From an uncultured Synergistales bacterium (GTDB lineage: Bacteria > Synergistota > Synergistia > Synergistales > Aminobacteriaceae), in contig CAJOEM010000006.1 of assembly GCA_905233725.1 (NCBI GenBank), positions 1 through 64,000 of the forward strand: a stretch of DNA of 64,000 nt. The letters are read 5' to 3'. Position 1 is the stretch's first letter. Each line of letters begins with the position of its first letter. Positions 37,622 to 55,985 of the stretch are shown in pieces. The notes below the pieces were generated by a model, which worked only from the letters and a program-made list of their open reading frames with translations, was not told where the DNA came from and did not search any database. The position numbers and the translations under genes are program-made.

Positions 37622-37836
37622 CTTAATCGTGTGTATTTCTCCTAAAATGGTAAAGCTTCGTTTTATTTTATATTAAAATGGCTTGAAATCAAAAACGAAA
37701 TCTGATATAAGTACAAAAAATAATTTTACAGAACGGTCGTTATTTTTCCCGGTAATTTTATTTCTCAAAGTGTTTTATATCACTGGAGTTTGTCGCATAA
37801 GTGGAGAGTCCGTTTACCGCTTTGCGTGTATTGAAA
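37622..37836 (+). repeat. Dispersed AT-rich element, copy 1 (CRISPR-repeat-like 3' end)
   Basis: Near-identical to the reverse complements of copies 2 and 3; ends ...GTCCGTTTACCGCTTTGCGTGTATTGAAA. Confidence 0.85.
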
Positions 37837-37871
37837 TTAACGCGAAAATCACTCGGAGAAAATTATCAATT

Positions 37872-51949: not shown

Positions 51950-51970
51950 GCCAATTTGCCTCCCATAATT

Positions 51971-52121
51971 TTTCAATCCACGATTTCAATCCACGCAAAG
52001 CGGTAAACGGACTCTCCACTTATGCGACAAACTCCAGTGATATAAAACACTTTGAGAAATAAAATTACCGGGAAAAATAACTGATTTCAAGCCATTTTAA
52101 TTATAAAGGAGAAATACACGA
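51971..52121 (-). repeat. Dispersed AT-rich element, copy 2 (shortened), between dhaM and dhaK
   Basis: Reverse complement TTGAAATCAGTTATTTTTCCCGG...GTCCGTTTACCGCTTTGCGTGGATTGAAATCGTGGATTGAAA; lacks 47 bp present in copies 1 and 3. Confidence 0.88.
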
Positions 52122-52138
52122 TAAAGAATATATATTTT

Positions 52139-55766: not shown

Positions 55767-55985
55767 TTTCAATCCACGCAAAGCGGTAAACGGACTCTCC
55801 ACTTATGCGACAAACTCCAGTGATATAAAACACTTTGAGAAATAAAATTACCGGAAAAAATAACGAGCGTTCGGTAAAATTATTTTTTATACTTATATCA
55901 GACTTTGTCTTTGATTTCAAGCCATTTTAATTATAAAATTTTAATTATAAAATAGAACAAAGCTTTACCGTTTTAGGATAAATAC
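55767..55985 (-). repeat. Dispersed AT-rich element, copy 3 (long form)
   Basis: Reverse complement matches copy 1 over about 200 bp; ends GTCCGTTTACCGCTTTGCGTGGATTGAAA. Confidence 0.88.

Follow-up and report, generated by a model that had tools for sequence, protein, structure and literature searches.

The three related blocks found in the window, by which we mean the whole 64,000-nucleotide stretch analysed here, are copies of a short mobile element whose right end has the frame of a type I-C CRISPR repeat and whose insertion sites carry the type I-C motif TTC. We propose, with a confidence a little short of even, that this is a non-autonomous mobile element whose RNA would borrow the type I-C system of its host to guard or re-home its site. 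This reading is drawn from sequence comparison; no single rival predicts the mobility, the PAM, the register and the repeat frame together. The three copies lie at the places and on the strands given by the first-pass annotation (one on the + strand and two on the − strand), and their neighbours are ordinary genes. The extent assigned to the block needed correction, since the element starts at a conserved CGTGTATTTCTCC and ATTGAAA is its end; likewise, the claim that similarity stops right after ATTGAAA fails for copy 2, whose last 13 bp partly recur (TCGTGGATTGAAA, 51971-51983). The features in the window are as follows.

37628 to 37836, + strand: copy 1, from left end CGTGTGTATTTCTCC to right end ATTGAAA
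37683 to 37711, + strand: promoter-like TTGAAA, 17 nt, TATAAG of copy 1, directly upstream of the RNA, identified by inspection
37721 to 37836, + strand: predicted folded RNA of copy 1, comprising stem 1, the pseudoknot, stem 2 and the terminal hairpin
37792 to 37837, + strand: terminal hairpin, frame GTCGC...GCGTGTATTGAAA plus the next base, abutting host sequence
51965 to 51969, − strand: right duplication of copy 2, ATTAT (4/5 identical), one base past the repeat end
51971 to 52120, − strand: copy 2, with an interior deletion and its last 13 bp partly repeated
52121 to 52128, − strand: TTC (52126-52128), then the left duplication TTTAT (52121-52125) of copy 2
55767 to 55882, − strand: predicted structured RNA of copy 3, the top score in the host genome (129.7 bits)
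55767 to 55985, − strand: copy 3

Copy 2 sits between dhaM-like and dhaK-like genes. The flanks of copies 1 and 3 have decayed: the left flank of copy 1 reads TCC-TTAAT, in which PAM and duplication are unrecognisable, and they are equally unrecognisable at copy 3, whose left end is mutated. As a further check the first-pass annotation had proposed counting the copies genome-wide; a search of the whole host assembly (a gut member of the Synergistaceae; G000, 1.87 Mb in 57 contigs) with copy 1 as query gave about 15. The family as a whole comprises about 45 copies over four species and is found in 4 of the 43 genomes of the genus, all of them drafts with one genome per species. An order-wide search of 183 genomes for the RNA found no carriers beyond the same four species, and a pattern scan of GTDB gave matches in goat and red-deer Synergistaceae/Synergistales, that is, in two of the four; its matches in unrelated phyla were taken as chance. 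The element measures about 120-220 bp, and many copies are internal-deletion derivatives in which both ends are kept (left CGTGTATTTCTCC, right GCGTGGATTGAAA). Several copies precede a gene start, and copies sit in chromosomal operons. At L011, L044 and L118, in three species, the terminal 13-15 bp on the right are partly repeated in tandem, so that the end repeat of copy 2 has a counterpart in a single copy from each of two further species (L044 and L118); these repeats could reflect slippage or failed spacer uptake. In one of the sister species, G013, a second short repeat family (GTGCTTTTACTATA...) interrupts element copies L054, L057, L118, L136 and L137.

That the element is an insertion, and mobile, follows from flanking duplications in a fixed register and from empty sites in relatives. 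Duplications in the host genome are 5 bp long; five of them match perfectly (ATGAT, AAGTC, TAAAC, ACTAT and TTAAA) and a sixth agrees at 4 of 5 positions. When left and right flanks were compared in the duplication register, 36 of 50 bases matched versus 20.6 in shuffled pairings, a value as high being reached by 3 of 20000 shuffles, and neighbouring registers gave 20-22. At L012 ATATA is duplicated too, one base off register. The sister species have mostly 4-bp duplications (ACGG, AAGA, TTGA and ATTT are perfect) and once one of 5 bp (TTAAT), the 4-bp register for G001 and G013 having been picked from the data. Empty sites, which the first-pass annotation had suggested mapping, were found for copy 2, where about 20 relatives align straight over the dhaM-dhaK junction with the element absent. 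Its suggestion of a non-autonomous mobile repeat mimicking a CRISPR repeat is thus supported by the target duplications and the empty sites. Inspection of full-length copies revealed a motif, AAA-N2-GGTAAA, 15-25 bp from both ends and in opposite orientation, which may be a binding site; in looking for the terminal inverted repeats of a MITE, this subterminal motif alone was seen. No autonomous relative with the same ends was present among the copies found, and a loose left-end pattern search for an autonomous copy was swamped by background.

The likeness of the right end to a CRISPR repeat not only held but could be extended, the hairpin being flanked by GTCGC on its 5' side and by GCGTGGATTGAAA on its 3' side, and it is further backed by the I-C cas genes that the genome encodes, by the I-C arrays of relatives and by the TTC found where the element inserts. 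The hairpin frame, GTCGC...GCGTGGATTGAAA, is that of the type I-C arrays of the genus (G029, G001, G007 and G013); the array repeat of G029 reads GTCGCTCCCCTCGTGGGGGCGTGGATTGAAAT. The element hairpin is longer than the array hairpins, and in G013 the element L138 has a short terminal hairpin that comes close to an ordinary I-C repeat. Each copy has one repeat, whereas a type I-C array has at least two together with unique spacers, and no second repeat was found downstream of the guide position, a result that counts against the reading we favour. The notion of an orphan leader plus single repeat is not supported as such, since the part upstream of the hairpin is instead a promoter-like sequence followed by a conserved folded RNA. 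By eye, this upstream part is unlike the I-C leader of G029, the sole readable one, the host array being absent from the assembly. The first-pass annotation had named unrelated CRISPR repeats and leaders as an outcome that would undo its proposal; the leader does look unrelated, and the repeat is clearly related.

In the host genome, TTC stands directly before the duplication at 10 of 12 intact left ends (p = 1.7e-14; the frequency of TTC in the window is 2.8%), the two exceptions being TCC and GTC. It does so at 3/3 in G001, and G013, in its 4-bp register, has a mixture of TTC and TTT. TTC is a demonstrated type I-C PAM in Xanthomonas, and a 27-nt guide suffices (PMC8406640). At L007 an upstream ORF has this TTC as its final codon and its stop codon within the duplication, and hence the motif belongs to the target and not to the element. 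The layout of an insertion is TTC, duplication, element, N, duplication, and the right side reads GATTGAAA-N-duplication. Since N corresponds to the last base of the I-C repeat, the duplication occupies spacer position 1 onward; in the empty site the same bases are protospacer position 1, directly after the PAM. The register is unchanged whether the duplication is 4 or 5 bp. Aligned in this way, the right flank of a copy matches the site as it was before insertion in exactly the register of a crRNA. Some copies (L001, L003, L007 and L009) have lost the hairpin or the PAM and duplication, which counts against the favoured reading.

The earlier statement that the window has no cas genes holds as far as seen, with the addition that I-C cas genes lie on other contigs of the genome. 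Comparison with NCBIfam confirmed cas5c, cas8c, cas7 and a cas4 cut by the contig end, with cas3 elsewhere; the truncated cas4 scored 64.4 against a cut-off of 65. The cas5c-cas8c-cas7-cas4 genes are on G000:C8 (L154) and cas3 is apart on G000:C34 (L194); in G029 they are adjacent. I-C cas genes, as expected alongside a type I-C array, are thus present in the genome. A search of the host assembly found no cas1, no cas2 and no CRISPR array, all of which probably sit past the contig break at cas4. Traces of I-C systems independent of the RNA occur in 8 of the 43 genus genomes and include all four RNA-bearing species (p = 6e-4), a co-occurrence counted after the data had been seen; when arrays or cas genes alone are counted, 3 of the 4 RNA-bearing species remain (p = 0.003). 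Cas7 was not detected in 3 of the 4, so that either the assemblies miss it or the RNA persists without it; this too counts against the favoured reading.

These results bear on whether the element might be an ordinary MITE moved by an unseen transposase that prefers TTC-N5, its CRISPR-like end being due to chance or decay and its RNA having some other role, such as transposition control or that of a 5' leader. The duplications, the conserved ends and the interior deletions are all typical of MITEs, the subterminal AAA-N2-GGTAAA lies near both ends, and several copies precede a gene start. We nevertheless consider this rather unlikely, as it needs three coincidences, namely the I-C frame on both sides of the hairpin, the I-C PAM and a base-exact I-C register, and it must also accommodate the fact that the element is confined to species in which I-C traces occur and that genuine I-C repeats share its layout.

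The exact GCGTGGATTGAAA is also found as single ordinary I-C repeats beside genes in G001, G006, G007, G013, G020, G022 and G029; a match within an open coding region of G025 was set aside as probable chance. These single repeats in other species of the genus are our loci L220-L247. Their stems vary in sequence and many still pair (CGCTCA/TGAGCG, CGCTCTC/GAGAGCG), although for some of the short stems shuffled sequences fold equally well. At several of these loci the arrangement is that of the element (motif/duplicated bases: TTC/TAGTC, TTC/CACTTCAG, TTT/AATGT, TTT/AACCGTAACAGAAAAAAGTAG, TTT/36 bp, diverged), the duplicated bases restarting after the repeat; other single repeats show none. It follows that the register is not limited to one element lineage, although the left junction is. 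A single I-C-like repeat occupies the rpsG-fusA spacer, directly before fusA, in both G001 (L227) and G029 (L239), and this unit may be old and inherited. Another gene has a single repeat at its end in both G029 (L240, G029:C13) and G001 (L223, G001:C60), G029 having two repeats that are 7 bp apart.

The variation among these loci fits the view that the copies are scars of escape from self-targeting, in which the chromosomal source of a spacer was cut and then repaired by a leader-plus-repeat copied from the array to a place ahead of the protospacer, which removed the PAM and left fossils. Spacer integration produces just such an exact join of the repeat to protospacer position 1, and the genuine single repeats vary both in duplication (5, 8, 21 and 36 bp) and at the left junction. 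The window family, however, has a fixed left end and a fixed duplication length, its RNA part is unlike the G029 leader, and compensatory changes, described below, keep the fold of the RNA as they would not in a fossil. We therefore regard scars as quite unlikely for this family.

The predicted RNA is about 117 nt long and ends at the right edge of the element. The promoter-like TTGAAA-N17-TATAAG, recognised by inspection, lies about 55 bp in from the left end, and the pattern is conserved across species; a consensus promoter scan did not list the pair, that scan demanding T as the sixth base of the second hexamer. The RNA contains stem 1 (UUACCG...CGGUAA), a loop strand (AACGGU), stem 2 (CUC...GAG) and the terminal hairpin, in whose loop ACCGUU pairs with the loop strand AACGGU to form a pseudoknot. 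Over 33 copies, 12 pairs had double-sided changes versus 4.2 in shuffles, and no shuffle reached the covariation score, these shuffle contrasts being inflated by kinship among the copies; 88% of cells pair versus 34-49% when the partners are slid. For the pseudoknot, to which the alignment was not fitted (it was fitted to the three nested stems), 87% of cells pair, as against 49% after a shift of one column, and double changes are seen in L049 (AACAGU:ACUGUU) and L131 (AAUGGU:ACCAUU). The outer part of stem 1 is unpaired in many copies, and RNAalifold, given the 33-row alignment with its gaps, predicted no more than five pairs; it is the pair counts that carry the structure. The compensatory changes thus support a predicted fold with three stems and a pseudoknot. 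No family in Rfam, at curated or permissive thresholds, matched the RNA of the element; within the window Rfam matched a tRNA gene (489-564, − strand) and nothing else. In two G001 copies, L046 and L056, the terminal loop contains inserted sequence (CCCTTCGGGGCTACGCTA...), of which 18 bases are shared with the tnpB locus L059 of the same genome, in its 3' part.

A fold of this kind raises the question of an omega-like guide for a type V or TnpB-like nuclease, encoded elsewhere or missed by the assemblies, with TTC as its PAM and the I-C likeness convergent. In outline, a pseudoknotted scaffold with a 3' guide position resembles the guide RNAs of TnpB and Cas12, TnpB domains occur in 3 of the 4 RNA-bearing species, with many in G001, and the 18 bases shared between the loop insert of the two G001 copies and a G001 tnpB locus point the same way. 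No TnpB domain was found in G013, despite its many element copies, and TnpB loci were rejected as the source of the RNA after twelve TnpB-type loci had been examined and no RNA match appeared beside them. The present element duplicates its target, as IS200/IS605 elements do not, and its terminal hairpin carries the I-C frame. An omega-like guide is accordingly, in our judgement, very unlikely.

If instead the RNA works through the type I-C system, as we propose, transcription would pass through the right edge of the element into the host flank, and Cas5c would recognise the hairpin and cut at its base, between GCG and TGGATTGAAA, to give the usual I-C 5' handle joined to a flank-derived guide. 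Cascade-Cas3 of the I-C system would then attack element-free copies of the site, in which the PAM is present; occupied sites would be spared because there the PAM is replaced by the repeat end, the same rule by which an array tells self from non-self. Attack on empty sites would favour retention of the element and possibly its re-insertion by recombination. The choice of new sites, for which a copy's own guide cannot account, a point that counts against this proposal, might lie with an unseen transposase having a TTC preference or with recruitment through I-C adaptation or interference. Such a maintenance role has been proposed for TnpB and its omega-RNAs (PMC10278001 for TnpB). The stems and pseudoknot upstream of the hairpin also count against the proposal: they are needed by no I-C crRNA known to us.

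The same repeat end could serve another purpose, that of a mobile RNA decoy of the Racr type, a mimic that would tie up Cas5c and Cas7 and shield the element or its passenger from I-C, the flank being irrelevant. RNA anti-CRISPRs, one of type I-C among them, have been published with this layout of a lone repeat preceded by a promoter (PMC10651486), and the hairpin retains the I-C frame. A decoy predicts neither TTC at insertion sites nor the exact register of the flank, and the copies are found in chromosomal operons, with no confirmed match to the element in phage, plasmid or viral-contig collections. We think a decoy unlikely.

More tentatively than the guarding role itself, we suggest that the element may stand for a class of transposable elements that use type I CRISPR immunity for their upkeep, in effect a homing drive like that of OMEGA systems but powered by a CRISPR complex of several subunits. 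The flank crRNA of each copy would destroy or convert element-free alleles, the PAM would match the insertion rule, and the single I-C repeats scattered through related genomes would represent its minimal forms. Should the guide function, the type I CRISPR of the host would have been made by a mobile element into the keeper of its insertion, and an RNA-guided logic so far tied to TnpB and IscB would extend to type I CRISPR. This would bear on the trading of parts between RNA-guided nucleases and transposons, on why single CRISPR repeats occur outside arrays, and on whether CRISPR adaptation and transposition have a common route. The open-access literature that we searched contained solitary repeat units and ectopic repeats and described no PAM-registered mobile repeat. 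Even on a cautious view, we found no description there of a CRISPR-repeat-ended mobile element with a PAM insertion rule.

Among known systems, an assignment to an established Rfam family fails, as noted above. Tn7-like CAST elements are also mobile DNA linked to CRISPR components and make a duplication of about 5 bp. They insert tens of base pairs beyond the protospacer, whereas the present element inserts 4-5 bp from the PAM, within the protospacer, and lacks Tn7-type genes. With CreTA and ectopic repeats (PMC9458426) it would share a crRNA-like RNA made from repeats beyond the array; CreTA occupies a fixed locus with a toxin RNA (creT) and, in most cases, two degenerate repeats, in contrast to a multi-copy, mobile element with one well-kept repeat end. 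Like a MITE it is short, non-coding and present in many copies, with target-site duplications, empty sites and interior deletions. It differs in apparently lacking perfect terminal inverted repeats, in having a conserved RNA that reaches its right edge, and in inserting beside a CRISPR PAM. Like Racr and solitary repeat units (PMC10651486) it has, as judged by inspection, one repeat mimic behind a promoter-like sequence, outside arrays and away from cas genes, but it is multi-copy, chromosomal, mobile and PAM-registered, with a longer folded RNA, and had no match in the phage, plasmid and viral-contig collections searched. OMEGA systems (TnpB/IscB omega-RNA of IS200/IS605 type) have an omega-RNA end where this element has an I-C repeat frame with TTC as PAM, and a TnpB or IscB gene and (in IS200/IS605) insertion without duplication where it has a 4-5 bp duplication and no nuclease gene inside. 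In layout, however, the two agree: the predicted guide position is host DNA beyond the 3' edge of the element, the target motif lies on the opposite side, the RNA is pseudoknotted, and the predicted target is the element-free site.
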